From Marisa cornuarietis (taxonomy: Eukaryota > Mollusca > Gastropoda > Architaenioglossa > Ampullariidae), in NCBI GenBank assembly GCA_004794655.1, contig SMMW01000141.1:684501-748500 (forward strand): a DNA stretch of 64,000 nucleotides, given 5' to 3'. The position numbers were made by a program, and so were the translations under genes. Positions 16,159-46,100 of the stretch are shown here, in pieces. Every line of letters begins with the position of its first letter. Position 1 is the first letter of the stretch. The notes below the pieces were generated by a model. That model was not told the DNA's origin. It saw nothing but the letters and a program-made list of their open reading frames with translations, and made no database searches.

Positions 16159-16198
16159 ATGCCAGCCATGAAGTTTTGGACGAGGGAGAAGCCACCAG
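16159..16198 (+). CDS. ATP8B: Flippase coding exon 1 (start codon)
   Basis: Follows acceptor TTTTCAG (exon from 16147) and ends at donor GTATGC. It encodes residues 1-13 plus one base, [13 protein letters not shown] then split E, matching the short ATP8B2-type N-terminus with its KRPPE-like stretch. In-frame ATGs lie at 16159 and 16168; the second has a G at -3 and may be the better initiation site. An out-of-frame ATG at 16152 overlaps them. Confidence 0.8.
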
Positions 16199-19100
16199 GT
16201 ATGCCCATTTAGTTGACTGGGAATATTGAGCTAGTAATGATCTTAGTTATTAGTTTTGGATAAATGCAATCAATAAAACTAAATTTTTAGTAGCTTTTGT
16301 TTGCATAATGTGCTTCCATGCATTCTTCTGTAAATAATGTGAATAACCATGATAAGATCTTTTGACTTCTTTGCCCTCTAGTCAAATGCTTTTTGTTTTT
16401 GGTCTCCTTTTTCTGTTTTTTTTTTTTGGTCAGGACTTTCTACAGAAATATAACACTAGTGCACAAGCACAGAATGAATTTATTGATCAGACAGCTTTCT
16501 TTGCTTCCCATCCCAATGACTAAGGAAGAAGAGGCCAGGATAGAGCAAAAACTAAAAAGCTATTGATTGTATTCATGGTGTGAACATTTGTTTGCCTGTC
16601 CCAGCCCTTTTGTGCAGGTCTCCTTCTGCACTTATTGCATGCTGAGGTTCTTAAGGTCTAGTTGCCTGGTTGCTAATAGTGATTATGTTATTGATGTGCA
16701 GTTTATAAACAGTTGACACCTTGGATGAACTGATATTTAAAACATTTGGGTGCTCAAGGTTCCCATAGTAGAAATGCGTTAGCCTTGTTTGAAAACTAGT
16801 GTAAAGAACAGAGAAAGTTTTATCAAAAATTTTTTTGTGTTTATCAAAACTGTTGATTTTCTTCACAATTGGCTTATTTATGAAAAGTGCAGAATGTTTT
16901 TTTTTTCCTTTTTTTGTCTACTACAGTAAGTCTTCACTTAACATCGTTGATAGATTCTTAGAAAATGCAGTTTGAAGCAAATCAACATGCTGCTGAAGCA
17001 ATTTTATTGATATATGTGTAAACAAGAGTTAAGTTCTTACTGTATATTTCTGGTCACTAAAATACCATCAAACTTCTAAATAAAGACCCATGACATGTAA
17101 GAGGGAACTGAAGTACTTGGAGAAAACCCATCAAAGTTGGGGAAAAACCTGCAGAAAATTTTCTTTTCTCATTCATTATATAACAAAATGACATTAACTG
17201 AGGATTTACTATAGTTGCTACAAAACAATAAAAAGTTGTCTTTTCAGTCTTTTTCAAATCATTGTGTGTTCAAACATTGTTTTCTAAAAAAAAACAGAAT
17301 ACGCATTTTCGGTCTTGTGTTTATAGAGTAATAAACTGCATCAGGCATTTGATGCCGAATATTATCTTTACCGTCAGAGGAACATGTTTTTATACAGTTC
17401 AAAAGCTGCAGTCAATTACAATCTTTGAGTTTTTGACATTTTGTGCGTTGTGGGTATTTTAAATATGAAGATAAGACTTAACTGAATGAAATGTATGTAT
17501 GATTTTTTTGTGGTACATACAAAAATGTCTCAGAGTTCCACCGACATCTACTGTAGGGTCCGGCTCACCTGAAAGGGTAGATCTGTCAATGAATAGAATG
17601 ATTCTGTCAGACGAGCAGATAAACATGGGTACCCCTCACGGATGTGTGCTTTCCCCCATCCTATTCTCTGTATACAAATGAGATATAACCATTAGCAATG
17701 CAACTCTCAAACTTGTAAAGTATGCAGATGACATGGTTCTTGTGGCCTGCCTCAAAGATGACCAGTACCTGGCCTGCATGGAGGAAACTAGAGGACTGGT
17801 TTGACTGCAGCTTTCTGGTGCTGAAAGTTGAAAAAACGGAGGAGATGGCATTTGGGAGAGCACATGATGGAAGAGATTGCAGTACCCCTCTCTCCCCACC
17901 AATTCAAATCAAAGGACAGCAGGTGCAGAGGGCTGCCAGTTTTAAGTACCTTGGTACAGTATTAGACGGAAGGCTCTCCTTCAGTGATCAGGCGAACCAA
18001 GTGTACAAAAAGGCCCAGCAAATACTGCATGTTTTGAGGAAACTGCAGCTTCAGCGTCAGCTCTGGTGTGCTGGAAACTGTCTACAGGTCCTTTGTTGAG
18101 ACCATTCTCATATTTAACATCGCCGCCTGCCATGGTGACCTGCTCGTGAAAGGCAAGGCAAGGCTGTCCAGAATCATCCATCAGTCAAATAAAATTATTG
18201 GAACATCACAGCTGCCACTTTCTGACTTGTACCTTCATGCGGTCAGAAAGATGGCATATAATATCACTTCAGACCAAAAACACCCCCTCTATCCCAACTT
18301 CCATCTGTTGCCCTCAAGCAGGCACTACAAAGTGCCACAGGAGCAGAAAACTGCCTACCAGAGATCCTTCAGGAGCAATCACCATCCTAAGGACTTGAAG
18401 GCTTTCCATATTACCTTTTGGGAAGCTCATGTGTATGTGTGAGAGGGTGTAGGTGTGCATGCGTGCTGAATGATGTTGTGGATATGTATGTCTGCCTGTT
18501 ATGTTTTGTAGAAATATATGTAATGCTTGTGTTATGTTTGTATGTGTGTAGTGATTGTGAGCAAAGAAAAATTTCTGTCTTGGACTGCCTTGGACAGACA
18601 AAGTTTGATTTGATTTGAAAGCTTGTAAGCACTCCACATCTTCAGCATGCTGACTTTTATCAACAAACAGCATGGTGGTGCTTTGGCAGTGAGTGTGGCA
18701 ACAAAACTGAAATGATCTTCTGTCCAACAGGGGAGGGTGTATGGTGCAAGGTACTTGCTTTGGGATTTTAGGGGATGTTAGTATCCAGCATTTATTGATC
18801 GTCATCTAGTGACAGCTGTGATGTGTTTTTGAGCATGTTTTCATTGAACAAGAACTCAGACCAAGCATATCAATAGACTTTAGGTAGTAAATAGAAGATG
18901 CTTTTGAAGAGCAAGCACATTTATTTTCTTTTTTCTTTTTAAAGTATGCATCATTTATTCTGTTAGTCTTGGTGATCTTAACATGTGCAGGTTTTGCTAT
19001 GCTGCTTACCGGATTAAATAACAAAGAAATTTAAATTAATAATAATGAAGATTTAATACCAAAAATGACTAGTAAATAGCACATAGATTTACTGTGTTGG

Positions 19101-22100
19101 CTAGACTAAGTATGAGACTGTCAAAGATACTCTGAATAGAAGAGAAAAATGCGTCGTATCATGCATTTTTTGGCTGTGTATTTATTCATTTTGAATTTTT
19201 TTCGGGTCTGCGTGTGTGATCATAGTAGAAAGTCAAAGGCAAGATTTAAAAATTACTGTGCTTTCTCTAATATAAGCAAACAATAGATTATTAGTATCTT
19301 AACATTTTTTCTTAAATGTCATTGGATCTTAATAAATAATGAAATTGTACTGGTTTTATATATATATATATATATGCTCCATTGCCTCAACATTATAACT
19401 GCTGCAAATGCCTGCATCATGAATTCTAGATTGAAGATGGTTTTTCACACTCGTAAGGTATGAAGTTTAAATGTATTAATAATTTGTGCAATTTATTTTC
19501 CTTCACAGAGCTTGAACGGAGGATAAAAGTAAATGATGCGGAAAACAATGCTCAGTTTGAGTATGCAGTAAGTACTTATTTCTTTACTTTGTCTTTAACA
19601 GTTTCTTTATGGTTGGTAAAAGTTTGTAAACCATGATGTCAGAGAGTTGCAGTTAACTCGTTGCCAACATTGCATACACGTGCCATACACACCCTTTATC
19701 CCCTTATTGGTTTTATGTGTACCTATAACATTATTAAGAAATCTAGCAGAGTGCAGTTGTTTTCCTGATGACTGGGTAAGGCCTTGTGTCAAATACTATT
19801 AGCAATACCTGGGTGAATACCACTTAACTCCCCCTCCACTGTTCTCAAGATACCCATGTTCAAACATCACTCTGCACAGACATCACATAGTACATGGATA
19901 CAGTTGACAAGGGTTCAGCCAATACCTGGGTAATTACTACCTAACTCCCCCACCCCCAACTTTTCTCAAGATACTCATGTTCAAATATCATTCTGCACAG
20001 ACATCAGGACTGTACATGGATACCGTTAGCTGTCAAGACTTCACCCAATGCCTGGGTGAATACCCTGTTTCCTCAAAAATAAGACAGCATCTTCCATTAA
20101 ATTTTGCTCCCAAAGATAAGCTAGGTCTTATTTTCAGGGGATGTCTTGTTTTTCCATGAAGAAGAATTCACATTTATTGTTGAACAGTCAGTCCTAGATT
20201 AAAAGTGGTCAGTACTACATAACAGGTGAGAGCTTATGATGGGGATGTCTTGATGATGAATTATGGCACATTTTGATACATGCAAAAGAGACATAAGGCT
20301 TTTGACAAATATCTGTGTGATGTGCATGAAACATGGGATTCTAATTCATTCTTAATATTGGGGTTGGTTGCAAAGTATTCAAAATAAGGTGTCTTTGAGT
20401 AATTTTAGCATTTCACATTTTCTTTTTAAAAAGGTAAAATTTGTTTATGTCTGTGTAATCCAAAGGTACCACAAATCAAATCAAACGCCTTTTAAGACAA
20501 GATGCATATTGATTAGAAAATGGATTTTTACCACATGAAGGATGATGATAAGTTAAACATATTTAAAGTATTGGTGGATTTGCACTGCTTCCCTTCTGAC
20601 AGCTTGTGAACTCATTACGGTTTTTTTAAAAGAGGGATTCTACTGTATATGCTGAAAAAAAAGACGTAGACCTATTTGATCTGTTCCATGACTGGACTGT
20701 TGTGTAGATAGGAATATTTCTTGCCTGGATTATAGTTTTTCAGATGAATGTAATAGGCTGGGAGCAACATACTTTTTACCATCTCAAATGGCATTCTATA
20801 GACAACTCATTTGTGTGTTATGTTACGTGTGTCTGTGTGTGTCGTTCTTTGTAAAACGTCATGAGCTTGCCCATAGGGCTGGGATGTGGTACAATATTAT
20901 TTAACTTTTATTAGTAAATCCTATGTTACCGCATATGTGCTTGCAGCAAAACCACATTTCAACGTCAAAGTACAATATCTTGACCTTCATCCCCAAGAAC
21001 TTGTTTGAACAGTTTCAGCGGTTGGCCAATGCCTATTTCTTGGGTTTGCTTATTCTCCAGGTGAGTACAGCTCAGTCTGGGTGTATTTGCCTTAGGTCTT
21101 TTTACCTTTTTCCAGAGACATGCACTTCATGAGTTTATTTAATTCCAGATCACACAGGCTTTTTGATTAAAATTGAGAAAAATTTTTATAACGGCAGGAG
21201 CTGTTAAGATGCTAATGAGTTAAAAAAAAAAAATTTTTTTCTTCAGATAAATTCAGGGTAGAAAAATAAATACGATGAACATAAGAGTATAAAGGATGTG
21301 AATGTTTATAGCTCTTATGTAATTTTAACGATAATTATAATGGACATATTTGACAGTTGAACAAGGAGCATTAAATTGTTACTGACAGAGTATCATGTTT
21401 AAAATTATAATTGATGTTGTGGGTGTTTTTTTGTAATTTAATCATTGCATTAAAATATATTTCATGCTGATGGATCATATTACTGTCATCCTGCATGCAA
21501 CAACATTAATACAGGGCAGTTGTAACCATTCTCATGATGTTTATTCTACTTTGATGGCATCATCATTTTTACCAGTCTGATTTGTATTCAGCAACAGTTT
21601 TGTTTTGACTGCTGTGTGGTGATAATCTCATGTGTATCGAAACTGTGGTGCTCAATAATTCTGAAGAACAGACAGTTCTGTTTATTATTCTGACAGTAAC
21701 TTTGCCATTGATTTTCAAAACAGACACCATTTATCTTGAATATCATGTTATTTTGTGCTGTTTACTGTTACCATTCCTGATGACTGGTGTCTGTGGAGAG
21801 TCAATCTACCTTTCTGCTTATTTCAAAACCAAAATAAATGATTATAAATGTGTACAATTGCTTTTTTTTCTTACAATAGCAGTAGTTTTTAATGTTATGA
21901 AGATTGACCAATAATAGAACAAGAAAATATTACCTTTTACTGTTTGAGCTTCAACGATAGATAAAGAGCATTTTTCAGCAGTCGTGCCATCTACTTCTCA
22001 CCCGTGTTATCTCTTGATTCCAAAGACCATTGCAGAGTAATTTATAATTTGGCTCCTTTAGCATATACATAAACAGAATCAACAAGCTGAGCACCCACAC

Positions 22101-25100: not shown

Positions 25101-28100
25101 TAGAACTTTTGATTGGTTAACAGAAGGAACTGCTGCATTCAAAAGTAGAATCAATTTTCTGTTTACCGCCTGCAGAGTTGCATCTGTTTCTGTGTTCTAT
25201 CATGATTGTGTACTAAAAGTTTACTACAAAATAATTTCTGTGAAATCCAAACTAGAGAATAAAAGTTTTAACAACATAAAAGGCAACCAAAGCAACTTGT
25301 GAAATGAAAAAATTATCAGGTGGCTGTAGGGAGAGAAAGAGCTAAAATTCTTGGGAAATTTTTACTTAAAACTGGGCTGTAGTGAAGAGAGTTTTGATTG
25401 GGCTTGTAGATGAGAGTTTTGACTGGACTGTAGTCTTGATAGGTCCTATAATGATGTTGATTTTTGTGGATTTTCCTTTCAGTAGAGAACAAAGCACCTT
25501 CAAAAGGTACTGTTAAGTCCTTAATTTGTTGAGAACTTTAGTTTTGCGCAAACATTTTTGAGATAACACAAGCATGTGCAAAATAATTTTTTTTAAATGT
25601 GAATGGCATTTGTTTGGTGCAGAATACTGCACTTAGCATCTAATGTAAATATTATAAATACATATAACAGAGCTCTGTTGACCACATGCTTGATGAATTC
25701 TTGTGATTTTTCACATATTTTTCTTTCTTGTTACATGTGTTTTGAGTATCTTTGCATGAAATAATTTGCAGTGCATTTCATTTATACAGCCTGTTGCATG
25801 TTGTCTAGATTTGCAGTTTTTCAGTGTTCTTATTTTAAGCTGTAAATTAAAATTGTTACGATGTGTTAGTATTGTATTAGAATACCTGGAGCGTTGTTTA
25901 TCATTTTCATTCATTTTCTGCTTTAGAAGTTGATTTGACATGTTTCTAAATCCAGAAACAGCATTGAAATAAATTAGGGGAAAAGGCTTTTTAAACTATT
26001 TCTTAGTCATCACTAAATACTTAAATTTCACAATCACAAGCATCTCAGATTTTTCCCCCTCAGAAGAAGTGTGTGCGTGAATGTGTGCGTACCTGCATGC
26101 ATGTTTCTGTGTGTGTGCATGTGCGCTTAATAGTGTGTGCATAAACAAGAGTAAGAGATGGTAGGGGGTGGGGGAAAAGAGTAACAAGTTTGATGTTTAA
26201 ATATTGACCACATCACACTATACACTAGGGTAGTGCCACACAGAGAACATATTTATCCTTTTACTGATTCAGCATTTTCCTACTTGCTCAGACTTATTTA
26301 CAGATCTTTGTTTCTTTTATACACTTTATAAAATATTCTTCAGATCTTAAAAAAAAAAAGAAGCCATTTTCAGTGTCACAGCTCTATCTAATAATTTATT
26401 CATTGTTTTTCCAAGAACACAGTAAATAAATCCAGTGAATGCCTTTATAAAAATGCATATTTCTTTCTGGAACCTTTGGACATTGTGACCAGCGTCCAAT
26501 TGCAATTCAGATAAGGAGCTACTAAAGACATGTCATAGTCCTAATCATCAGTGTTATGTAATGGAAGCAGGCAGTAGAAATTTAAAAGCTTAAATTTTAG
26601 ATGGCAAACACTTGGTTTTTATGGTATTGTGTGGAATGCTTTAATTTGTTTATCTTTTAAAAGTATGCCAGAAGTATGCTTGTGCACATCTTTGACCTTG
26701 TACAACAGTTTGTATTGTGAAATAAATGGAAAATGGTGCGCATCAACTTTTTTTTCCACCTTTATTTTCACAACCATGCAGTGTATGTGCCACATCCCTG
26801 CATAAGTAAATGTTATGTTTATCTTTTGAATGTTACTCTAGTTGATTCCGGCTATATCTTCACTCAACCCTATTGCCACCGTTATTCCCTTGGTCTTCGT
26901 CCTGAGCATCTCGGCTATAAAAGAAGCCATTGATGATATTGTAAGTCATATAAACCTGCACACAAGGCGATTTCAGCATTACCTCTCACTTCCGTAGATA
27001 GCCTGATGTGTAGCAGGCACTACGTGGTGTAGCATCTTGCCAAGATGTTTTTTTTTGTATTTTCACCTGTCCTAAGCACCCGTATTCCTTCGTGTGCCTT
27101 GCTGTTCTTTTTTTTTTCTTCATCATTGGAACAAAATACTGGTTTGAGGTTATCATTTTTTAAGAGAAAAGAAATGTCGGGGCTAGACCACATCTTATAA
27201 AGTCCATCCTATTTGTTTGATGGACATTAAGTGAATTAAATAGAATTTAATGGCATATAATTTAGCAGACCTTGACATTGGTGACCATGTATTCTGTTCC
27301 ATTTTGAGATAACACTTTCATGTCCCCAAAACTGCTTGGCTAGCGTTCAGACACAGCGTGACCCACTTCTGCATCGTACCTGCTTTTCCTTAGTTACTGC
27401 TTTGAAACAGGCTTGCAGTGCAGGGAACATCTTGGTGTTGAGCATAATCTCTCTTTGATTTTTACTGATGCTTTAGTCTAACTTTATTTAAGGCGAGCTG
27501 ATGGGAAAGCAGAAGACAACTTACTGTGTTTATCAAGCAAAAGATTTTCATTGCTTATGTCACAAGGTCCCTGTAACGTTTACAGTTTAGCCACTAATCC
27601 TAAGAACCAAGAGACCAGCACTGCAACTGATTCAAAGTGAATGCATGCAATTGCTGTGCCAACAGTAGTGTCTAGACAACAGCTTTCCTGCAGTGACAGC
27701 TGTGTAGTACTGTTCTGCATTACAGTCCCTGTCAGTCATGAGTGCTGCATGATATGTCGCCTGCCGCTACAGGATATTTTTAGGAATAATTTTCAAAGGT
27801 CAGAGAAGTGATAGAAAACAAAATAATAAGTGATTTACATTTCACAAACATTTCTGGTATTTTAAGCCGTATTATTATGTAGATCATTTTGTTAAATTCC
27901 CATTATATGTGACCTGCTAGTCTCTTTTGGTGGCTTTTAAGTTGCCTATGGATACGCTGATTAAACAAAGAATAATACCTGGTCATAAAGCAATTTTTTG
28001 TTGTTGGTAGTATTGGACCTTTAAAAAAAATAGACCCTGAAAATATGTGAAGATTACTTGTGGCAAAAGTCCCCTGCTTGAATTAGGTAACTTACAGTGC

Positions 28101-31100
28101 AGGCAGCCTCATGATTGACAAAATCTCTTATCTTGATCTTCTTTATTACTGTATGATTTTAACATCCTCCTCTGATCCACAGTTGCTTGCTTTACTCCAT
28201 AAAATGGGCTGGACTAAGGGTGGGGGACAGAGCAAATTTATTTTCTAGCAGCGACATTTTTTTTATGTTATCGACATAGTTAATGTGTTCTGAGTAAAAA
28301 GCTGCATTGCTAAGCAGTTGCTGCAGAACACAATACATTAGAGAGGTTTGAAAGAGTGGATTCCTCATTGTCAGACACCCAGCCCACACCCACTGTTGGT
28401 CAGTATGGAGATCTGCTTAATCTTGTTTTCAGCTGTAGCTGTTTGAATATTTACAGCTACGAGAAGAACTTAGAATTAAGCACATTAGAGACACATTCCC
28501 AGGTGATAGGTAAAAAATCAACTTTCAGCCACATTTAACTGCTCAACTGTGAAACTGCTTGTTCTGTTTTCCAGACACCTTGTCATGAAAGTACGCCCAG
28601 TGGAATTTTGCAGGTATTTCATGAGGCCTCTTTCACTCATGAAACTGAACTAATGTTTCTTTTTCCTTTTTCCAGGAACTTAACATTTCACATGTCTGTT
28701 GTCTTCAGATTACCTTGAGATGACATCTTTGTTCTCAGATGTTACGCCGTAACTCTGTGCCCCTCCCCCTTAAAAATCTGTTGTTTGAGTCATTGGTTTG
28801 ACTTGACCTAGGTCCACATGTTGTGTTTAGGTCTAAATATTTCATTGTTTATCCAGATGTTGTATTGGCAGTGTACATGCTCTTCTATCCTGTCCTTGTC
28901 ACTATGTACCATGTGATTACCATTGCTTTTCCTTTAACATTGAAATTTACAAGAGCAAGAAGCTTGGATCATCATTGAAGATCTTAACACACATGTAGTA
29001 TCACACAGTACAGTCCAAACCAAACAACTTACACAGATGATTGAGGATGCTTTTCAGAATTGAAAGATAACCATGACAATCTTCATTGACATGCAAACGG
29101 CCTTCGACAAAGTGTTGAAAGATGGGCTGCTGGTGGCATCAAAGACAACATGTACCCCTAGAACAAAGCCTGCCTACCTCTAAAACAAACGATCTAAGGG
29201 TGCTGGTGGACACTGTAGCCGGAAGGTATTCCTGTGGTAAGGTGTTCCACAAGGAAGAATTCTCTTGTTGACCCTAAACATACTCTTCATTAACAATCAA
29301 AGGAATCCATGCTGCCCTTTTTGCAGATGACCTGGTTCTCTGGTGCTTGAAGGGGTAGATGGCTTAGCGTAAAACACCAATTTCCGCCCCCCCCTTGGAG
29401 GGGTATATAACAACTATAACTTACAGGATTCAGCTTGCTGTGAACAAATCACAGCTTGGGCAGACAACTGATCTACAGAAAAGACAGCTGCAGCCCTTTT
29501 CTCACTCTTTTCAAAGCATAAGCTTGTAAACTAATGATGGGAGACCAACACTGAAGGCAAAGCCTGAAGACAACATCATGAGAAAGCTGGCTGGTACAGA
29601 CTGGGGAGGCCAATGAGAAAATCCTCAAAACTGTGTATCAAGGAACTGTAAGACTGCACCTTGAATATGGGTCAAGCCTTAGATGATTGCAGCCAAGACA
29701 CACCAACAGATCTTCAGCAAAGTCCAGAAGCAAGTACAGTCGGACCTCGCTAAGTCGAACTTCCCTAAGTCGAAAACCTCCCTATCTCGAATTAATTGTT
29801 ATGTCCCTGCCAAATTCCCTTAAGAACAATGTATTTTAGATCTCCTTAACTGGAAGATTTTTTGGCTTCCAACCTCCCAAAGTCGAATTTTGAGTCATCA
29901 CCAACCAGACGCAACTATGTCTTAAACTGTTCCAAACTATGTTCTAAACTGTCTTTGTGTAAAAGGTTTGTTGTGTGCTCTGTTGCGCAGTGGACAACTA
30001 ACTGAGTCTCACACCAGTCCCCCCTTTGAAGCTGACCGATTCAGGGGAACTGGCCGACACTAGACTTTTTCCCACAGCCGCTTCAAGTCAGCTGGCCGCG
30101 CATCACTGGTCAAGATTTATGGCCACCCGCCTTGACCATCCTTTCAGGCGGTGGCGGTGGTAACTTGACCAGTGGACCGTTGGTGGTTCACACGCAAACT
30201 TACTGTGAAAAATACGTTTTCTACACTTTGTCAGTCTCTTATTGGAACGAGCACTGAATAGAGTTCGTGCGTGCCGCGGAAATGGCAGTACATGCATCCG
30301 TATAAAACGATAATCCTGTATAATAAACGGTTATACAGTAATTAAGCGGAAAAACATTGTCCTTGATTAACCTGCGCCTATTACGCCATTTTCCCTAACT
30401 CGAAAACTCCGTAAGTCAATTTTTTTTTTCGGGTCCCTTTGAGTTCGACTTAGCGAGGTCCGACTGTACTGAGAAGCATGGATACAGGTTAACACAGATT
30501 GGTCAGCAACAGATGCCATCCAAAATAGATGGGGTATACATTCCAGTACCCTGATGGACACAGGCAGACAGTATTCATACTAATAATCTGTCGCAGCACC
30601 AATTACAGAGCCAAAGTCAAAGCCCTAATAAGTGCAGTAAACAGTATCAACAGCAGAGCAAGCTAAGACTCGGAGGTAGTGTCCTGACAGATGACCAGTC
30701 TGTGCCCAAAACTGCCAACAGTGGCTACCTAAGCTGACGGCAACCTAAAAACAGTACTGCAGTGGGTACCCTCACACTGAAGACAATGTTGACAGAGTGG
30801 CAAAACTTGGAGCTGGAGGCAGGCAGGAAGAATACAGGGTCAGCTACCACCATCTGTCCAGATCAGACAAGGTGATAATTTTAACCCTCAGGACAGCGCA
30901 CAATTTTTATTATCAGAAGCTACATCTGGTGTCATCCACAATGTGCTTCTATGGCAATGCAGAGAAAACCATGGAGTATATCCTACAGAACCATAGACTT
31001 CTCCAGGAACTGAGGGTGGAGGTCTGGCTGTCACCAATGCCCCTTGACACCAAGTTGTAGGGACCTGTGGATGCTCTGCAGATGACTTCAATCGAGAGCT

Positions 31101-34100
31101 GGCCTCAAGTGTAGCAAAAACAGGCAAACAACAGCAACACCACCACAGTACAGTGTTTGTTATCGCCATTCTCATGGTCTTGCTGTTTCTTCGGCCTGGG
31201 ATGTGAAATAAAGGAAAATTAAAGGAAAAAGAAACAAAGATGAAAACAGGATTTAGCTACAGGATTCGCTACTGGCCATGGGAATACCACACCACATACT
31301 GTGCCTTTTGGTTTACACCAAGCAGTTGACACAGTTGGATCTTTTAAATAGGACTCAAGAAAAAGCATGGGGGCAGTTATTAACCCATCCAATTAGATCC
31401 ATGTCTAGGAACTGGCTAGAACTTTGCCATATCTAACTCCTTGACAGACCAGTATTCTGAGGTGTCGCATATGTAGACCCATATCAAGGAACTAGCCAGA
31501 ACTTTGTCATATCTAATTCCTTGGTGGCCCGTATGCTGAGGCATCACCTAAACTTCTATATCCTTGGCTAGGCATTCTATGTAAACATAAAAAATAGCTT
31601 ATTTTTTAGTGGCATACCCCAAAGCATTTATATAATGGGTGCTGAGGTAGCTTGCAGGTTTTCATTTTGATAGAGGTTTCCTAGACATCAGGCAGTAATG
31701 TCTTTTATATGGAAAAATGCAAGACAACAGACAATGTGATCTGTCCTCCAAGGTGAATCTATTCTGACACATCTGTTGTACTTGATATTCGCATATCTTG
31801 TTTTTGAGAAATTCTTTAGGTGCTTCCTGGCCTGTCTTGTACCATTCCACTGTATAAGAAATATTCAGGGGCAAGAACAGGCAGATAGTGACTTGTGCCT
31901 TAGGATATAGTGCATATCCTAGTGTGTGTGTAAATGGTGTATATTTTTTTCCTGTGGTGTTTGTCTGGTCTGTTTGACTTTTGTGTTCACTTCTTTATGA
32001 GCTGCTTGTAAACAGGTGTGTGCAAGAAATTTGAAGTTTATAATGACCTAATGTAAATGCAACTATATAAGTGACTTTTTTTCGAAATTTAAATTTCCGA
32101 GAGAGTCACAGAAATATCTGAAATAGCAGGAGTGGAGTATCCTGCCTTGAACCCCCCGTGAAAAATCTTTACATTCTTTTGCAGAAGTTGACCAAAACAA
32201 CATTTTTGGGGAAAAAGTGTTCTTAGCTATAATTTTCTTGTCATGCAATTTTCTCTTTAACAGCACCTGCTCAGCAAGATGTAAATAGTCTCAGATTATT
32301 GTCTCCCTTTATTGATGGTTGTTTTCAACAGCTGGCAGTGAAGTTTGTTATCTTTGTCAGCTTGGAGCAGGTTTCCAGGTGCTGTGCCAACAAGCGTGCT
32401 TGTGGCACAGGCAAACCCATTTCTCATGCATCACGTTATAATCTCTCTCCAATCCTCTCGTCTGTCCCACCCTCCTGGTGCCATTGGCCACGGTGCCGGT
32501 GTTCAGCTGATGCCAGTGATCAGCTCCCTGACTCCTCTCACAACTATCATTCCGCTGGTGGCAGTGCTGATGGGTACGGCGGTCAAAGATGGGGCTGACG
32601 ACTTAGTGAGTTCAAGATCTACTACCATTGTTGCCTTGGCATCTTTTCTGTTATCTTTCTCAGTTTAAGATAAGATAATATAACACTTTATTTATCTCAG
32701 AGGGCAGTTTGGGGCAGCTCAATATGAAAGTGCAAAACAGTACCATAACCCATCCATATCCACCAAACAGTCAAAAACAAAGAAAATGTAGAAAATTGAG
32801 GGAAAGAATCGAGAGCTGTAAAAGTCATACAAGGAACAGCCATCTTAATGTACCTATTATTATCATTCAGAATATTTTGCCTTGCCGATCAAGCTAATGT
32901 TTAAATTTATTGCATTGAAACCTCTTTATTCCCACAACCCTATGTCTCTCAGTCTTTTTTCTTTAATATTTACTTAAGTAATTAGCACTGGTAGGCAGAA
33001 ATTCTGCTTTTGTGTTAGTTTGTGCTGGCAGCATAGGGAGACAATTGTATTGTCCCACCTGTCATGACTTACTTCAGGCCTCACGTTTGTCTAGAACAGC
33101 ATGGGATGTATTGAGCATTAAAAAGTCACAAGCCAGTTCCGTAGCATCTGGTATGCTGCCTGTTGGGTTGACTTTATTATGTCCCTGACCAGATAGATTG
33201 CCGTAAAGTAATTGGGCTTAAGGGAGGGTACTGAAATGATCGCATCGGATACTGAGTCCCAGATCTTGCATAGCAGTGTTGTGTTGACAAAATTGTACTG
33301 TGCTCCTTACGCTTAGTCCCCCTTCCACCCACCCCACTTATCTTAACCACTCTGTTGCTACTAATCTTGGAAGATGTTTTTCAAAAAAAAAGTGTATTTT
33401 GTGTTTTTGTGCATCTGACCCTCACCTCCATAGCAGGCAACTGTTTCTTTTTTATTCTGACTAAACATTATTATGCACTAGTTTGAAAAAGTGTTTTTAA
33501 CACAATCTGAAATCCCATTGTGTGTATAGATTTTATTGCTATCTTTCTTAACATATTTTCCAGTTAAAACTACTGAGTGGCAGTGCTTTTTAAAGAGGAA
33601 TATATTTGACAGAAACAATCTTTTAAACATTATGATCTATTTATTCAAGTTATATGGCATATGTATGAGTGACAGTGCATGTTTGCATGGTGTGTACAAG
33701 TGTGTCGTGTGGATGTGAAAGATTGTTCTGTTATTTTTAAATAAGTAAAACAGCACTTAAGATTTTGTAAAAACTTTTCTTTCACATGACTGGGTTCAAT
33801 TTATTGAAATATTCCAGTTAACTAGAAACATTTGTTTTCAGTTCTCCTGTTAGCTGTACCCTTCATAAAATCAACATATCTATAGACCACAGCAATATTG
33901 TGGTTTTATTCTTTTTCTGTCTATAAGTCATAGTATGGATACTTCAAAGCACATGTTTCTTGAATGGATGAGGTTATTGGCCCTGATTTGGATGAATATT
34001 ATTTTATAATGAACTAAGCACAACTATTTGAAAAAAAGTTCTCAGGCAACCCTTTTTACTGCCTTTAAAATTTTAAACTTATGTTTAACATGAAATAAAA

Positions 34101-37100
34101 TACTTCATTTTTAATTAAAAAAATAAGGTGATTTTTCATCATTTCAGCTGTAGTGCCCTGAGGGGGGATTTGAGAAAATTATTCTTAAGTAGTCAGGTCT
34201 TCAGCGTGATATACATATGCACATATTTATGGAAGGACTGAATATGGCAGGAATGTTCTTTTACCAGTTAAAAATTGAGAATAAAAATTGTTTAAGCTGA
34301 AGGAGTCTTGGTAAGTTGTTTAATTCTTTAAAACAAATGCACCCTTGCAAGCTTTTTATGGCATTCCTTATCCTCCAGTTATTTTCTGTCTGTTGCTTCT
34401 TTCTGGCCAGCCATAGCATTTAGTTTCAGCTGAGTAGGACTCACTGGTCTTAGTTTTGGGAGATGGTGATGGTTTCACTCCTCTCTACTTGTGTCTGTGG
34501 CCTTGCCCAGTGTTTCAAGTCTAGTTAGGAGATATTGAATAATTGTTCGTGTTATTAGCACTGCATTGATGATGATGCAGATTACAGTGTTTGATCAGTA
34601 TATAACAAGATTACTTACAGAGCACTGATTATATAATGTGTAATAAATAACTTACAAGAGGAAAAAGTTGAAGGCATTTACAGATGCTTATGATGAAGGT
34701 TAAAAGTATTGTAACATTATAAGTCTTGAAAGTTTACCATAGATTGTGATGCATGATTAGTTTGAGGATATACATCTGTTATCTTATTAAAAAATATACT
34801 TATAACCTCATGCATGTGATAAATTGAGAATGGATGAAGCTGTTAATGTGATGTTTGCCACAGTTTTTATATGTCTATTCTGTGGTTAAAATACTCTGAT
34901 GGACATGTTTTAGCAACGCCATCGCAGTGATGCACAGGTCAATAACCGGACATCCTACGTGCTTCGAAAAGGAGAAATTGTGGAGGAACGCTGGCATAAG
35001 GTTTCCGTGGGAGATATTATCAAGCTCAAGAACAATGATTTTGTTGCTGTATGTTTGATTTGATTTTTTTGTAGGTGCCACAAACATCAAATTATAGTAT
35101 TGTATATTTGCTGAGTTAAAGTTATTTTATTACTTCATCTGTATGAAGAGACAGTTTTGTCTGGCAGGCACTCTGTCTGAAGACATTGTTATTTTTTTCC
35201 TTTCAGTTCTTTTGTTTCACTATGTTTTTCTGGCATCTTTCCTTTCTCATTCTTTTTTTTTTCTTCTCTGGTGACATTTCTAATGAGACTTTAAAACCTG
35301 CTATAGACCAAAACACTTTTGTTTTAAAATTATGCTAATTAAAATAATTTGTATAAAGCACTTCATGTTCTTGCACATTAATAAAGTGATTGGAAAAAAT
35401 ATATTGGTTGCTAGTATGACTGTTTCAAAAATACTGTCTAAATGTGTTTGAATCTGTATATTTTCATGTATAATTTTCCAGGATCAATTTGCATGTTATT
35501 AACATGAAAAATAAAAAAACGTTGAATTAGAAATATCTTGAACTAATAGCATGATTGGCCTTTTGCAAAAACTTGAGTGTTCTATCATCCTTTGACCCCT
35601 ACAGGCAGACCTCTTGTTGTTATCGACTAGTGAGCCGCACAGCTTGTGTTACATCGAAACAGCTGAACTTGATGGGTAAGGCTCTGAGTTATTCATGCAG
35701 TATAGGTTTCACTCTAGAAATGCACATCACAGCTGGAGGATGCAGGGTTAAGACTAGCGCTGATCCAAAGCCTGTGTTGGAAAAGCAGTGATCTGGGCCT
35801 TTTTTTCTGTCCTTAGTCCTTATATATATATATAGTGTAAAGCACATCACTATTGGGGCTGGGAAGTTGTGTTAACTAGATCCTATACTCACCTGGGTAA
35901 AGAAAAAGAGAAAGACTTGTTGGATGCATATTAATCGTTTAAACAGTTTTTTTTTTGGCATATAATTAGATCGTGTCGAATGCAATACATTTTGATTTAT
36001 AGACCTACAGGAGCTGCTCAAAAGTGTTGTCAGAGAAAATATTATGTGGTGTTGTGGTTTGTTAGAGTCTGCCCTGTGATCCAGGAGCTCTGTGTATAAG
36101 GTTTCTTGTGGGGTTACTTCACCATGAACTGTTGGACTATTTCCTGCCCTTTGACCTTTGAGCGCAGGGGAAGGTGGGGGAGGACATTTTTCTTGGGCCC
36201 CATAAATAAGGCTTAAGAAGTGGCTTACCACAATGAATCTTGGTGTAGTTTTATCCTAGTTCTCCATTTGGTTTTGAGCTGCCTATTCGTCCACATATTA
36301 TTTTGCCTTTGCTACAAACCTCAATATTTGGTGGGGGCCATATTGCTGTTAACCACCTGCAACTCGCTAGGTTGTGGATGACTGCCTGTTCTAGTAGTTT
36401 GGTCCCAGAGACAGGACATGTAAGTAAATGTCTTCATCACAGCATTATAAAAGTTCTACAGCTAAATGTGTAAACACTGGATTAGCCTTGGCTCTTCTAG
36501 TGAACCTGTTCCTCGTAAAATGGTTTTAAATAGAATAAGCTGTTAAGAAGGCAAGTGGGAATGTAATTTTTGGTGTGACTCCAGGGAGACAAATCTCAAA
36601 GTACGACAAGCACTTGACATCACAGCTGAGATGAAAGATGACCATGCACTGATGGGTGCATTTGATGGTATGGAAATCTTTATTTTATCTTAAACCTTTC
36701 AAGCTTTTAGTGTTTGAAATTATGAGCTGTATGTTCAAAGAACTTTTTGTAAAGGGAGGTGGGAAGAGGCTGGTTTTTGTAAATCCTTTTTTCTTCCTTT
36801 TTTTTTAGGTGGGGGGGAGCTTGTGGGTAGAATTCATTTATGTGCATTATGCCTAAATGTATGTGGATCCATTCACTTAGGGCATATTTGTCCAAAGCTG
36901 CATATTCTTAATGTGGATATTATCGCATGTTGAAGTCAAACAGGATATTTTGAAGCAGAAATTTGCTTCTAATGATGATGCACCTGTCATAAGTTGCATG
37001 TTCTGCATTCTATGTTCTGTGTCTGCAGCCAATCTTTTAAAATTGGTATGATAAGAGAATATAAGTTTAATCAATAAAATGATAAGTTTAATAAGCAGTC

Positions 37101-40100
37101 TCAAAATATTTGCACGATAATGATAAACGAAAAATTTGTATGGTGCTTACTCAGTAGACAATTTATCAGTTGGCAATGTCTGAATTTTATTATTATTATT
37201 TTTTTGCGTTCATTGTTTGATTAGCGGAAATTATCAGCGAACCACCAAATAACCGACTGTCCAAGTTTGAAGGCAAGATGGTGTTGAAGGACCAGACTTA
37301 CTCTCTGGACAATGAGAAGATTCTTTTGCGAGGGTGTATTCTGCGCAACACAGCTTGGTGTTATGGGGTGGTTATTTTTGCTGGCCGTGACACAAAGTTA
37401 ATGATGAACAGTGGCAAAACCAAGTTCAAGCGCACTCACATTGACAGATTCATGAATTTTCTTATTATTGGTGTAAGTACAGTTGTCTAATATATAACTT
37501 GTTTTGTAGGGTGAATGTTTAATTTTGTGAAAGTTAAATAATAAGGAAGATTATTCTAGATGCAATTGTTTTTCTTCATTTCTTTTCTAGGCAGGTTTTT
37601 TGTTTGTTTGTTTCAATGTCAGTAATTCTTGTTCCATTGTTGGTGAAATAAAATGGTGACATTAGATTTTATGCTGTTGACATTAAGCATAATGCTATGG
37701 CAGTTTAAGATTGTTTGCTGTTGACAGTTGTTGTAATGCTGCAGCGATCTTAAGATTTGTATGCTTTTGACGGTGTAATGGGAATGCCGTGGTTGTTTCA
37801 GATTTTTTTATTCCTGGTCACCATGTGCCTGATCTGTACCATTGCCTGTGGAGTGTGGGAGACAGTGACAGGCTATGATTTCCAGGCTTTCCTTCCCTGG
37901 GAATCGTTTGTCTCCTCTGAAAAACCTCGAGGAGCCACTACAATCGCTGTCCTTGTCTTCTTGTCCTACATCATCATCCTTAATACTGTAGTGCCTATCT
38001 CACTCTATGTGAGGTCAGTACCTTTCACATCTCTAAAAGTGCATGCTTCCTTGCATCTTTTTCTGACATGAGATCAGATTTATATCCATAATCTAACCTT
38101 AAAAATGTGGCAAGCAGTTAATACTTAGACAAAAGGCCACTATTTGTCCTGTCCTCATCAAATTTGGCAGCAATATTCATTTCAGTTATGAATTGGTCAT
38201 GGGCTGTGTTTGGTTGGTGTAGTTTGACCTGGAACATGCTAACCCTTGAATGTTATTTTCTTTTAATTCCAATTTCAGTATCTCTGCCTGTTGGACATTT
38301 CGCAAATTGTACATTTCCAATCCACAATATCATCTATCATTAAGCACACACCTATTGGGGATTCTTGGACAGGACCCTGCTTAGACTGCTTAAATTTGTA
38401 CATTGCTGTATGTTACATATTTTGTTTGCTTCTTGGTTGCATTCATTTTGGAGTTTATACTTCATTGATTTTCCATATTTTTTCCTCTTTATCCCATGAT
38501 TTTATATCCTTCCTTGACTATTCAAGTATAATCTAAACATGCCTTCTAATAACTCTCAAAACAAATGGCTGACTGAAGATAGGCTTCACATCGGAGACCT
38601 GAAAGGAATTCTCACCTCTAAATACAAACTTTTGGGATTCGTTTAAGTGTTGAATCAAGACCCTAAATATATCGGACATTCAAGCCACATCAGGCTTGTT
38701 AAAGTGTAATTCGTCGTTGAAGGCGAGAAATTGTGCTGGTTTCCGAAGATTAACGAGCACTCGATGAAGCAGCCTGAGCACAGAATTCCCGAAGTGTGAG
38801 GCTTTATTGGCAATAACAATGGCAGACTTGCAAGCTGTGGATAGCGCCACAGAATCAGCTAAAAAGGGCACAAGAGCCTCGATTTTGATTTGTGAGGGGT
38901 TTCCCTGGCTGATGATGCTGCTTTGTAAGTGTCAGGTTCACAAATCTAACTCGAGGCTTTTGCGGCCTTTTCAGTTAGTGACCCAGACGTTACGCATTTC
39001 AGTCAAAGTTTTCGGATAGATGCACATCAGCAAAAGCGAAATAACAGTAGAAATCGTGAAACTTAGTGGTATTGTTGTCGTAATTAATGACACCTTTGAG
39101 TCAGAATATATGGGTGAGAATCCATTGAATATAAACTATGCTATCAACAAAATCTCTGAATTAGAAACAATCCTATGCAACTCTGGAACTCCCATTCACA
39201 TTTTTGGAGTATCAGAAGCTTGAGTCACTCAGATAGTCTCATAGCGACATCTACATCTCTGGTTATACACTAGAACGACACCCACTACACAAGCTTGAAA
39301 CTGGATTGATAACTTACATAAGCTCATCCATCAATATTAAAAGCCTACATCACCTCGAAATATATAACATTGAATCAATCTAGCTTGAAATCAAGCAGAA
39401 TAATGCGGCTCCTATTCTCATAAGGTTTATCTACAGAAATTCTAATGAGAGAACAGAATGGATCGACCATTTCAGTTCTATGATAGAAGCTGTGCTTCTT
39501 GAATCCAAGGAGTTTATGCTGTTAGGAGATTTCAACTTTGACCTCTTAAAACTGAATAATCATTGGCTTGAAAAAATTGCACTGTCCAATCTCTCACAGC
39601 TTGTTACCTTCCCAACAGGAGTCACTGATACATCCCAAACTTTACTAGACCACATCTACATCAGCAACCCACTTAGCATTGTTGAAGTCTGTGTACTACC
39701 TAATGGTTGCAAGGACCATTTTTCTGTTTGCCTCAAACAAGGTCTTAAAATCCCAAGAGCGACACATACAACTGTTACTTACTGTTGCTTCAGAAACTTT
39801 GTCGAATCAGATTTTCTTGCTGATCTGTACAACTCTCCTCTCAACATTTACAGAAAATCCTGAAGAAGCCTTTACTTACTAGTATGACCAATTTTTTTAA
39901 ATATTTACTACAAACATGCACCTTTGTAAACCAAGTGTGTTAAATACTTTAGTAAGCCTGTATAGCTTGATCAAGAACTTCAAGCAGCAATCAATGTTAG
40001 AGATTTTCTAAAGAAGAATGGCAAAAAGTTGAATATAGAAAACAGAGAAACTTTGTCACACTCTTGAATAGATACAAGATGAAAAACTACTTTAGTAAAA

Positions 40101-43100
40101 TTGTTGAATGCAAAATAATACAAAAAACATCTGGAGAACTATTAATCACCTCACAAACAAATCTTAAAAACTCTAGGACGATGATCCCTATTCCTTCTAA
40201 TGCACTAAACTATCACTTAGCAACCGGCGCTAGCAGAGTTATTATGAATGATAAAAGAAAACACATTGGATAAACTACAAGGCTTCTGTAGAGTAAAGAA
40301 TATTCACACCACTCTCCACATTCTCCCAATGTCTCTGATGTATATAAAGCACAAACTCAGCTTAAACCATTGAGCACATGAGAGCCTGACAACATTGACA
40401 ACAAAACATTAAAACTTGCCCCCAGCCACTGCAGAAACGCTGACAGCCTTTTATTGAAAAATCCCACTTCCCAACCCTTCTAAAACAAGCGATAATCACG
40501 CCACTCTGTAAATCAGGTGGTGTAGATGATCCTACTATTGGCCAGTCTCCATTCTCTCATCACTCTCTAAACCCTTCACACTCATCTTCAGTTACACCCG
40601 GGGAAATATGAGCTTCACACCAATCAAACTAGATTTTGACCTGGCTTAACACTTTTGCCACACAGCATTAACATCTATTGTGGAGCAATGGTTAAGCATT
40701 ATAAATGATCATCAATATACTGCAACCCTTTTCGTAGACTGCTAAAACCTTTGATGTAATTGACCATGATCTGCTCCATAAAAAAATTAGCACTATACAA
40801 ATTAAGTAACTGCTCCATTCAATTCTTTTATTCTTTTCTTTCAAACAGAGCACAAAGAGTTGTTAATAACAAACTTTCAGATCCCCTTGACGTAAAATTT
40901 GGTGTTCCACAAGGCTCATTCTTAGGTCCTCTTCTTTTCTCTGTTTATATTAATGATCTTCCCTATCATGTATCCCAATCTTGCAAAATGTTTGCTGGTG
41001 ACACTACAATATGCATGTCACAAACTAAGCCACTTGCATCTTTTCTACAACAGAGTGCTGGTGAACTTCAGTCCTGGACTGATCTCCATATGGCGCTCAA
41101 CCCTCAGAAAACTAAAGTAATGCAACTAACAACCAGGCAAAAGAGGCAAAACCAAACTGCCTCATCTCCTACAGTACAACTAAATACTCAGCCTATAAAA
41201 GAAATACAAACCCATAAACTTCTAGATGTGACTATTGATAATGTCATGGTCCCAGCATATCTTAGCAATAAGCAAACTTATAGCAAAGGAAACCTATCTC
41301 CTGTCGAGAATTAAACATTTCCTAAATCTTCACTGTTGAAAACTCTTCTATGCAGCTCATATTCAGTTGACCATAGACAATGCTTCCACACTGTGGGACT
41401 CTGCCAGTGGATCTTCGATGAGGCCTCTTGTAAGCATTTAAAGAAGAGCAGTCCAATCAGTTTTACTCAAAACAACACTAGAATCCAGTGATTTCCTGAC
41501 TTTAGGGGCTCTGCGACTGACGCATAGACGGAAATTCAACAAATGTACGTTTTTCTGTAAAATACTAATAAACAAAATGCCCCCTAGACTTTCTGTATCA
41601 TTCTCCACTAAAAGCTTAATATTCCAATTCAGCAAATTGACCTGTTCAAGACAAGTTTTGAAATTCTCATGTAGTGTTCTGTGGAACAGGATTCCATCAT
41701 ACTTTCAGCAGGTGAAATTCAGTCTCTATCAGTTCAAAATAGGACTCCTAAAACATTTATACCAAACTCTTTGATTGATTCTGGGACCTCCCATTTGTCT
41801 CATTACAAAATTGTTCTGTAATTCTTGGACATATGCACTTTCTTCTTGTTTTATTGTGCCTTTTTTCTAGTTGGGAATTTGGTTTCTTTTTTGCATGTCA
41901 GTCCAGGGCTAGGTGTAAAAAGGCATATTTGCTTATTCTACTGTCGTAGTTAATAAAGATTTGTAAATATGTTAAATGACATTGCCTTGACCTGTATTGA
42001 AACTTTTTGTATCAGCCGCAAAGGATTGGTTTTGCTCTATATGCTCATTGTGTATTTTGAGAGATAGATGTCATGTTTGAACATTGCATCTACAATGAGT
42101 TGCTGTATAACAGAAGACAGACTTATCATCATAGATAATTTTTTTGTTTAAAACATACATCCTGCACAAATGTTTGTCCAAGATGCAGTGACCAGAGGCT
42201 AGGCTTTACAATCTTCAAGCTTGAATTTACAGTTGTAGGCATAGTAACATAGTAACTCTTTCAGGAATAATAAAATCTGTACTTTTAAAGTTGTTCCTGC
42301 ATTGGAAATAAAAAAAAGGTTAATTGTGCCATTAAACTTTTGTGATAATTTTGAACATCTTGTTTTGGGGCAATGTCTGCATGATCTCTTTGAGAATTTT
42401 TTTTATTTGTGCATTACAGCGTTGAAATCATCCGTCTTGCACATAGCCTGTGGATAAACTGGGACATCAAGATGTACTACGAGAAGAAAGATTCCCCAGC
42501 CAAAGCACGCACCACCACACTGAACGAGGAGTTGGGTCAAGTGGAGTACATTTTCTCAGACAAGACGGGCACTCTCACGCAGGTTGATATCTTGAAACAC
42601 ACAATGCTTGTCACAATGTCTTCTGGGTCCTTGTCACGATGATGATGGGATTTTTCTGTGCATCATGGATAATGCACTAGGAGGAAAAGGCCACTTTAGG
42701 GTTTTGTGTGCCAGATTTTTACACTGCAGGCAATACAAACTGTCTAGGGCTTCCATGTAGATCATGTCAGATTATATCAGGTCTTCTTGCTGTATGTCAG
42801 TTGCTCAGTTGCTGCACATGGTGATATATGGTGACCCACAATCTCTCCAATCACATTAAATTAAATATAAGAATTCTCTGTGTGTGTGTGTATTTTTTCA
42901 TACAGGAAGTCAGATGAGTACCCAAGGCAGTTATTGCTAAACTTTGTTAAAATTAGTAACATTTTTAATGTTGCTTTATTTTTATCATAAACTTCATGAG
43001 AAAAAAAAATATGGTAAAGGTAATGAGTTACAAGGACTTCTTCACCGTATTAACACATACATGTTGCAGAATATCATGACCTTCAACAAGTGTTCAATAG

Positions 43101-46100
43101 ATGGGAAGTCTTATGGTGATCCTCTTGACAGAGAAGGAAATCCTTTAGAAATCACAGAGGTAAACTCCTTTCTTGTATTTTTTTCCTCCTTCATAAAGGA
43201 AGGGTGGTGGAAGCTTTACAAAGGCAAATTTTTCTTGATTTTCTTTCATGTGTTCCCAGGTAGAAGATGGAACAGAGGTATATTCTGTATGTGCATGTTT
43301 GTATGTGAGTGAGAAGAGAAGGAAAAAGGAGAAAAAACATGCATGGGATATATTCAGATCTACTACAAGGATAGAGAATGAAAAAACAAAACTAAAGTTT
43401 TTTTTCCTATCACCAACATTAAGATGTAGCCACATGAATAACTCTTACTGCTTGCCTTCTACAATTTCCCCTTACCTGTGCAATAAGTCCTCTCCTCATC
43501 TCCCAGTTAGCTGTGGAGACTGTTTTACTTTTCATTTGCTATCATCAGTCCTCTCCCCACATGCACATTGGCTTTGGTGACTGTCCTCTTCAGACTCCTG
43601 GGGCCAGTTGCACAACATGTTTCTAAACCTTAAAACTTTTCTAAAGAAGCAAAATCTCTTCTTAGCCATTTAGATGCATTGCACAAAAACATACAAAATA
43701 TTGTACTGACAGGACGGAAAGTCAGACTTAAACAACTTTACCTTTCTTAAAGCAGTTTTAGTTTTAAAAATTCTAAAATTGGGGTGTGCACTTTAAACTG
43801 ATTATCTAAAAAGATTTAACATCTCCCAGTTAGCTGTGGAGACTGTTTTACTTTTCATTTGCTATCCTCTCCCCACATGCACATTGGCTTTGGTGACTGT
43901 CCTCTTCAGACTCCTGACCTCTGAAATTGTTTTAAAGAACTTGTAATGCTTTTCTTGATTTCAGAGGACTCCAAAAGTGGATTTTTCAGCGAATCCATAT
44001 GCAGAAAAATCATTTGATTTTTATGATTTTGAGCTCTTGAAGGTGGTGAATCATGGTGACCAGAATGCTCATGCATTTTTTCGCCTGCTGGCACTGTGTC
44101 ACACTGTTATGCCAGAAGTTCATGAGAATGGTGAGTTAAATCATCTTTTTTTTCAAATTTTCAGCCATAATCAGTTGTATTGTTCCTCATTGTCTTCCAT
44201 AATATGCCTAATGAACTCATGCAATGCTTCTCTGTTTCAGGAACCCTGGAATACCAGGCTCAGTCACCAGATGAGGGTGCCCTTGTCTCTGCAGCCAGGA
44301 ACTTCGGTTTTGTATTTAAGGTAAGAACACATTTGAGGCTAAGCTCTAGTTGTGAGAGATGTTTTTTATATTCATATGCTTTTTGATGTTTGGCAGATAC
44401 AGTTAAAACATATTGGGACATAGCTGTGCTTGTCAGGAGGAGTATAGGCAGGCGTTTCTTTGAGCGAGCACATTGTCTGTCAGACTCTGCTGTAGCCAGT
44501 ACTTAATATCTTGCATATTTCCTGGTCCCTCTCTGAGGATTGTAAAGGTTACTTGTTGGTTGTTTGCTGACCAACATATCTGATGCAGCCAGGCATGTTG
44601 TTGTTGTGGTTCACCTTGGTTACACTTGTAAGGCCAGCTGTCAAGATTAAGATTAAGCTAGCAGTCATCTGCAGAGTGTCCAGCTTGATGTCAAGGGGCA
44701 TCTGCGATGGCCAGATTTCCACCCTTAGTGCCCTTAAGAGCACATTGGGAATGACACCAGATGTACCTTGTGGTGTAGGTGGCACTTTAGTCTGTTATGC
44801 CTTGTCCTGAGGTGGACAGTTATCATGTGATATGGATAGATGATGGTCACTGTCTGGTGGTTGAGGTAATCTTTACAGAGCATTGATGATGGTCTTCATG
44901 TTAGGCTGACATTGTTTTTGTCCTGCCTGTCTTCTTAACTATAAACAAGTTTTGCCATTCTGTCAGCCAGTTCATAGCCTTCAATACCACAGTTTAAGGC
45001 TATCCACTGCAGTACCATATTTAAGCAGTTAATATTTCTCAGTGCTGCTGTCATCACAGACATGGCCTCTGTTAGAAACAACTACCTGTGAGTCTGAGCT
45101 TGCTCTGCTGCTGACACTGTTTTACTGTTCAGCTGCTGACACTGTTCACTGTGCAGATCAGGGCTTTGACTTCAGCTCTGTAATCAGTACAATGACAGCC
45201 TTTTGGTATGGCTACCAGTTGCCTGTGTTCATTCTTGTCTTCTTCGATCCTCTTATCTCCCAGTGGAGCATAGGGCCTCTACAGTCGTCTTCCACTTTCC
45301 GCGATCTTTGGCGATCTGCTTTGCTGCCTCCCAGGCCAGGTCTGCTAGTTTGAGTTCTTGCTGTGTTCATTAGGATACTGGATATATACCCCATGTCCTC
45401 CATTTTGGATGGCGTCCACCACTGACCAGTCCATGTAAACTCATATCCATGCTTCTTGAGCTTGCTTTTCTTCTAGCATGGTAAGTGCCTTAAGTTTCTT
45501 ACTTATGTCCCGGTGTTTGTCCTTGCCCGTGAAATGGGAAATGGTAATGCAGATAGCAAAGCAGCTTTCTGTCTCTTTCCAGGGAGGGGGATCATTAGAT
45601 GGTACCTGGTTCTCTACTTTTGCAGGCAGTCATTTCTGTTGTTGTCTCTGCAGTGCCTTCGTCTTTTTAATGAAGCTTGATCTTTAAGCTTGCCTGAAGA
45701 TGGTTGTGTTTGTCTGGCACTCATTAGATGGTCTGTGCTGTGCTTGTAGTTGGTGGTTTGTACTATGCCTTGCACTCTCTTCAGTGCTGGCAGTATGCTG
45801 CTTTTATGTCAGCCTTTTGAGCCAGCTATGGCTGTTTAAATTTTAGTGCTGTATTGTCTATAATTAGTTTGACAGCTGGTGCTTTGGTACAGAGTGAGAA
45901 AAGGGTTGCTGTTGTCTTCTGTCAGTTGACTGACACACACCAGCTGTCTGCCTACGCTGCGATTTTGTCCAGAGAAAACTGCATTCTGTACATTGCCATT
46001 GTTATATACTCCAAGCACCCGAGAACTCGGTCACCATGTGACCTCACAGTACCTGGAGCTCTGTGCAGAACTAAGCATTAACTGAATAAGGTGTGAATCT

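Follow-up and report, generated by a model that had tools for sequence, protein, structure and literature searches.

Probable alternative exons for the second transmembrane segment of an ATP8B-class flippase in the snail Marisa cornuarietis

Vertebrate ATP8A1 has two alternative versions of one internal exon, which lies in the actuator domain and not in the second transmembrane segment (TM2). Alternative splicing of P4-ATPase genes is also described in the accessible text of a study of Caenorhabditis elegans tat-1 to tat-5 (PMC2572054), and the snail gene reported here would share this trait; according to the same text, the forms of tat-1, tat-2 and tat-5 vary at the first or last exons, whereas the snail gene would vary at TM2. 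A likeness to the snail pair itself is found in NKCC2 (SLC12A1), for which the available part of the description (PMC7818487) gives neighbouring homologous exons, 4B, 4A and 4F, for TM2 and the adjoining loop, of which one is used per mRNA and the choice of which changes the transport constants. Exchangeable TM2 exons are already known in transporters through NKCC2, and the flippase pair would be a further case, although NKCC2 is an unrelated ion cotransporter with three exons and measured function, whereas the snail flippase has two exons.

Human mutually exclusive exon clusters, as presented by Hatje and colleagues in the text available (PMC5740500), consist of same-frame homologous neighbouring exons, as in the snail pair, and the authors argue that two membrane-helix exons cannot be ordinary cassettes; the accessible main text of that work names neither ATP8 nor ATP11 nor ATPase. 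The snail exons are neighbouring and homologous, have equal length and share the same phase. The earlier note on this DNA knew of no such switch in ATP8B-class flippases, and searches of open-licence PMC papers, the broader ones judged by title or abstract start, likewise yielded no description of a mutually exclusive TM2 exon pair in a flippase.

The window, that is, the whole stretch of 64,000 nucleotides that was analysed, contains an intact ATP8B-class P4-ATPase gene with one open frame (16159-53996, plus strand). The gene has 23 exon positions, or 25 exons when the second TM2 copy and a microexon are counted. Among the matches listed, the closest to the 4B form used as query is P0003, 'phospholipid-transporting ATPase ID-like isoform X3 [Pomacea canaliculata]', which serves as a reference for several of the following features.

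16159-16198, plus strand: exon 1, coding part (13 residues and 1 base); limits hand-counted from the frame, peptide matching the start of P. canaliculata P0003
19509-19567, plus strand: exon 2, ending in EYA, with cttcacag before and gtaagt after; 19509-19510 finish the codon begun in exon 1
20947-21060, plus strand: exon 3, TM1, phase 0-0 (cttgcag/gtgagt)
26842-26940, plus strand: exon 4A (class A), coding for the TM1-2 loop and TM2 (ctctag/TTG...ATT/gtaagt); 33 of 33 residues identical to P. canaliculata P0003
28575-28613, plus strand: exon 4i, a 39-nt microexon of 13 residues, phase 0-0 (ttttccag/gtattt); its counterpart TRCHESTSSGILQ follows 4A in P0003
32413-32506, plus strand: AG-free zone of about 94 nt with a C/T-rich tract, before the acceptor AG of 4B; the longest among 24 rows, ahead of one with 64; the row for exon 2 was measured from a start two bases late
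32507-32605, plus strand: exon 4B (class B), likewise coding for the TM1-2 loop and TM2 (ttcag/CTG...TTA/gtgagt)
34914-35048, plus strand: exon 5, coding for the linker and the beginning of the actuator domain, phase 0-0 (gttttag/gtatgt)
35605-53996, plus strand: exons 6-23, rest of the flippase (DGET, PISL, DKTGT and GDGAND motifs), with the stop codon at 53994-53996

Exons 2-23 with 4A form a single open frame of 1259 residues, and neither length nor frame changes when 4B takes its place. The core P-type ATPase motifs DKTGT, DGET and PISL are all found in the spliced protein; Pfam PF16209 matches the first 394 residues in both forms, PF00122 lies slightly under the cut-off, and TIGR01652 (phospholipid-translocating ATPase) matches the relative P0003. 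The best solved structures are those of ATP8B1, at about 1200 bits, followed by ATP8A1-type structures (918) and Drs2 (870), and relatives bear the names ATPase ID, IM or 8B. By these structure scores and names, the flippase appears to be nearer ATP8B than ATP8A, ATP11 or the yeast flippases. One raw 8-kb reading frame compared with the PDB gave no match. When its 13-residue insert is removed, P0003 differs from the window protein at 36 of 1259 residues, none of which lies in exon 4A; the window DNA therefore belongs to a close relative or a divergent line and not to the source of P0003 itself.

Re-reading of the window bore out the two exons on which the earlier note was built: 4A and 4B are 99 nt each, phase 0-0, bordered by AG and GT, and identical at 18 of 33 residues and 54 of 99 nucleotides. 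They do sit between exon 3 (TM1) and exon 5, and neither copy is decayed, as there is no stop codon and the shared positions are kept, including P3, S6, S7, L8, T13, P16, L17, K27, D31 and D32. In a hand-counted alignment to ATP8B1, the exon corresponds to residues 132-164, which comprise the TM1-2 loop and TM2. The pair stands out in the window: a six-frame scan of 20750 stop-free 33-residue stretches gave, after 4B, a next match to 4A of 9 identities, and tblastn of the assembled protein (4A form) found 4B at E 1e-6 and, besides the gene's own exons, two chance-level matches only (E 5.6 and 9.7). None of the gene's other exons is duplicated within the window. The introns flanking 4A and 4B, compared over 1500 bases on each side, share a single 13-nt match (E 0.34), which gives no sign of a recent duplication.

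We consider it very probable that this one gene would yield alternative pumps, with 4A or 4B supplying the TM1-2 loop and TM2 in each mRNA and 4i sometimes following 4A. In Littorina saxatilis, the 1256-residue isoforms X1 (P0004; class B, 4B-type) and X2 (P0005; class A, 4A-type) differ at 15 residues, every one inside the TM2 exon. Three pooled searches, the first of which gave the best 120 of 7981, provided 134 homologues, 6 of them without a TM2 measurement. Among the matches listed, the 128 measured proteins have a single TM2 segment in 124 cases, a double one in 3 and 4A plus 13 residues in 1; these counts reflect database annotations, in which 90%-identity clusters hide isoforms of one gene (P0003 represents 8 sequences). 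This comparison of annotated proteins, with 124 single-TM2 homologues and Littorina X1/X2, supports the mutually exclusive use predicted by the earlier note and suggests that each pump contains one TM2 version. It falls short of proving strict exclusivity, as three gene models include both copies: Littorina P0006 (V1264_002281), Pinctada P0023 and Argonauta X1 (P0046). Both copies in one gene were seen only in the window and in these models.

The three double models, in all of which the A-type exon comes first and the TPLTT-type exon second, would fit exons that are not exclusive and are often both included, adding a membrane segment, or that act as independent cassettes, and every exon combination is indeed in frame. 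We regard this as unlikely in view of the predominance of single segments among the measured proteins, seen also in 25 of 25 rows from 'lgn' contigs, mostly non-mollusc. P0006, which holds A then B and otherwise equals Littorina X1/X2, looks over-included because it carries a 194-residue insert relative to these same-species isoforms, and an extra helix would leave the domains after it facing the wrong side of the membrane, following the argument in the available text of PMC5740500. It is very unlikely that one copy is dead or nearly unused, with the duplicate skipped in practice and the other exon constitutive. Among the listed P. canaliculata proteins there is a counterpart (P0003) to the 4A form alone, which would fit such disuse, but both peptides are intact, the dN/dS check proposed by the earlier note found synonymous sites saturated (pS 0.87) against a dN of 0.385, the Littorina record has both as isoforms, and the proteins listed for Physella, Lymnaea, Haliotis and others are of the 4B type.

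Exon 4i is a newly found in-frame exon that the earlier note overlooked. The order in the window is 4A, 4i, 4B, and P0003 reads EAIDDI-TRCHESTSSGILQ-QRHRSD, that is, exon 4A, 13 extra residues and exon 5. Among the matches listed, a 4i-like insert was present in 0 of 127 other measured homologues; because many of these are arthropods, its absence says little beyond snails. The earlier note confines the difference between the isoforms to the TM1-2 loop and TM2; this holds for Littorina X1/X2 and has to be widened for the snail gene, where 4i after 4A would also lengthen the linker from TM2 to the actuator domain.

If 4A and 4B are alternatives, as we prefer to read them, regulated splicing would pick one of them. 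At a distance of 5.6 kb between the exons, steric hindrance can be dismissed; the GT-AG borders make a clash of two spliceosome types unlikely; and because each exon has 99 nt and all combinations are in frame, decay of double or skipped forms driven by the frame can be dismissed as well. Since crowding, spliceosome clash and frame-dependent decay are all inapplicable, a regulated choice remains. The long AG-free zone of 4B, with its C/T-rich tract and its sole yTnAy match at about -81, is of the kind found at acceptors with a distant branch point, and the 4B acceptor would be the likeliest control point. Counts of splicing motifs near 4A, 4i, 4B and 5 gave nothing firm. TGCATG occurs twice within 300 nt upstream of exon 5 (0.25 expected), which is one of 56 counts. 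T runs downstream of 4A were likewise one among the motif counts, with nothing firm.

We built a TM2 tree from 54 hand-picked segments of 51 of the 134 proteins and the two window exons, leaving out most arthropod and vertebrate rows and one Daphnia row. Class A forms one clade (99/99, a rough bootstrap on 33 columns) with members from Pomacea, Littorina, Babylonia, Biomphalaria, Aplysia, Bradybaena, Elysia and Plakobranchus; class B was not recovered as a single clade in this tree, Physella and Lymnaea standing apart from the other 8 B rows (94/91). A quick tree without TM2, based on the sequence that comes after TM2 in the window protein and in 31 of the 134 homologues, follows species, with caenogastropods, heterobranchs, other gastropods and bivalves. 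On this tree the A/B label must change 6 or more times among 17 gastropod rows, the Littorina pair accounting for one change, and the bivalve label (PWYT/PFYT/PYYS type versus TPLTT type) 4 or more times among 11 rows. Outside TM2, Biomphalaria A and Physella B are 90.0% identical, and Crassostrea virginica TPLTT and an oyster-like row 93.4%. Such switches of type among close relatives on a species-like tree are expected of one gene with two exchangeable exons and one isoform per database cluster. That classes A and B are instead two paralogous genes and the window pair merely a local curiosity, as the A and B proteins of Babylonia areolata, which come from contigs of different length and are 82.2% identical outside TM2, might be taken to indicate, is most improbable, given that the window and the Littorina record each hold both in one gene and that the tree without TM2 is not split into A and B halves, with the Nucella B-type pairing with Babylonia A.

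Under the reading of one gene with exchangeable exons, the gastropod A type is judged to go back at least to the caenogastropod-heterobranch split, because the A clade spans both groups while the rest of the protein follows species. Limpets, abalones and Gigantopelta (6 proteins among the matches listed) have type B only, and A and B in one heterobranch species were not found among the collected homologues. Comparable exon-type pairs are present in bivalves and an argonaut. Forcing A and B of one lineage together in AU tests cost 11.1, 24.4, 15.9 and 17.7 log units (p-AU 0.107, 0.037, 0.094 and 0.080, respectively), and one of the four was rejected at 0.05. A single origin of all 'first' copies was neither shown nor rejected (p-AU 0.34; 0.42 for gastropod A with the Argonauta first copy). 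Tentatively, and with somewhat less confidence than an even chance would give, we propose that a single duplication of the exon, no later than the time when the molluscan classes arose, produced gastropod A and B, the two bivalve types and the argonaut copies as one ancient pair with the variant exon ahead of the TPLTT-type exon, and that molluscan cells may long have retuned lipid selection by swapping this one helix of the pump.

Single mutations have been the main means of studying how TM1-2 of flippases set headgroup choice and gate closure. In the available portions of structural work, TM1-2 shut the outer gate above the lipid and connect to the actuator domain (PMC10657443, PMC11460456, PMC12424579), and the headgroup contacts ATP8B1 Thr144 and ATP11C Ser91 face the headgroup or turn away depending on the lipid (PMC12723151, accessible part). 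ATP8B1 Thr144 corresponds to exon position 13, hand-counted on the alignment, which is Thr in 56 of 56 segments. At the preceding position 12, 45 of the 56 segments have Ser or Thr, the 10 class A rows have Ala and the Argonauta first copy has Phe; here class A carries Ala where class B carries Thr. We infer that the exon swap would affect lipid handling by tuning the outer lipid gate, through altered gate closure or headgroup preference, and that catalysis would be untouched by it.

The two peptide types have each been conserved over a long time in their own form. At positions 2, 4, 9, 12, 19, 23, 28 and 30, the 9 class A rows, of which two are identical, have no residue in common with the 9 class B rows. 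Nucella P0009, which is partial and outside those 18 rows, has a B-like TM2 with the class A residues Phe 19 and Ile 30; because it breaks these two positions, six stay diagnostic. Clustering of the 4A/4B differences on one helical face gave p 0.045 for positions 10-33 and 0.24 for positions 12-32, and 0.24 in Littorina, 0.31 in Babylonia and 0.12 for the diagnostic positions; it was not used as evidence. A long-kept natural TM2 pair in an otherwise identical pump would be a ready-made swap experiment with few diagnostic residues and, if the reading is true, counting genes alone undercounts molluscan flippase diversity.

As a separate observation, databases already hold both isoforms, in the Littorina records.

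Babylonia areolata carries two ATP8B-like proteins, P0007 and P0008, which are encoded on contigs that differ in length, share 82.2% identity outside TM2 and differ in their TM2 peptide, one being of class A (the exon 4A kind) and the other of class B (the exon 4B kind). In the tree, which was built from the part after TM2, the B-like protein of Nucella lapillus (P0009) groups with the class A protein of Babylonia. The flippase gene may have been duplicated in the Babylonia/Nucella snails, with uneven sorting of the exon types.

Within the 300 nt before exon 5 (window 34614-34913), TGCATG, which we take to be the Rbfox motif, occurs twice compared to an expected 0.25. Because this was one among 56 counts, we treat the pair as a lead only.

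The flippase introns contain the following further features:

17722-18442, intron between exons 1 and 2: two overlapping open frames
39384-41311, intron between exons 9 and 10: non-LTR retroelement remnant with endonuclease-like and reverse transcriptase pieces
43438-43943, intron between exons 11 and 12: repeated stretch, seen in translated frames

In the remnant at 39384-41311, the reverse transcriptase piece matched RVT_1 with an E-value of 3e-9, and the endonuclease-like piece matched Exo_endo_phos at 3e-5, just under the cut-off. By eye, the overlapping frames in the first of these introns look like a reverse transcriptase remnant. In the repeated stretch, near-identical peptide words amounting to 27 letters are present twice.
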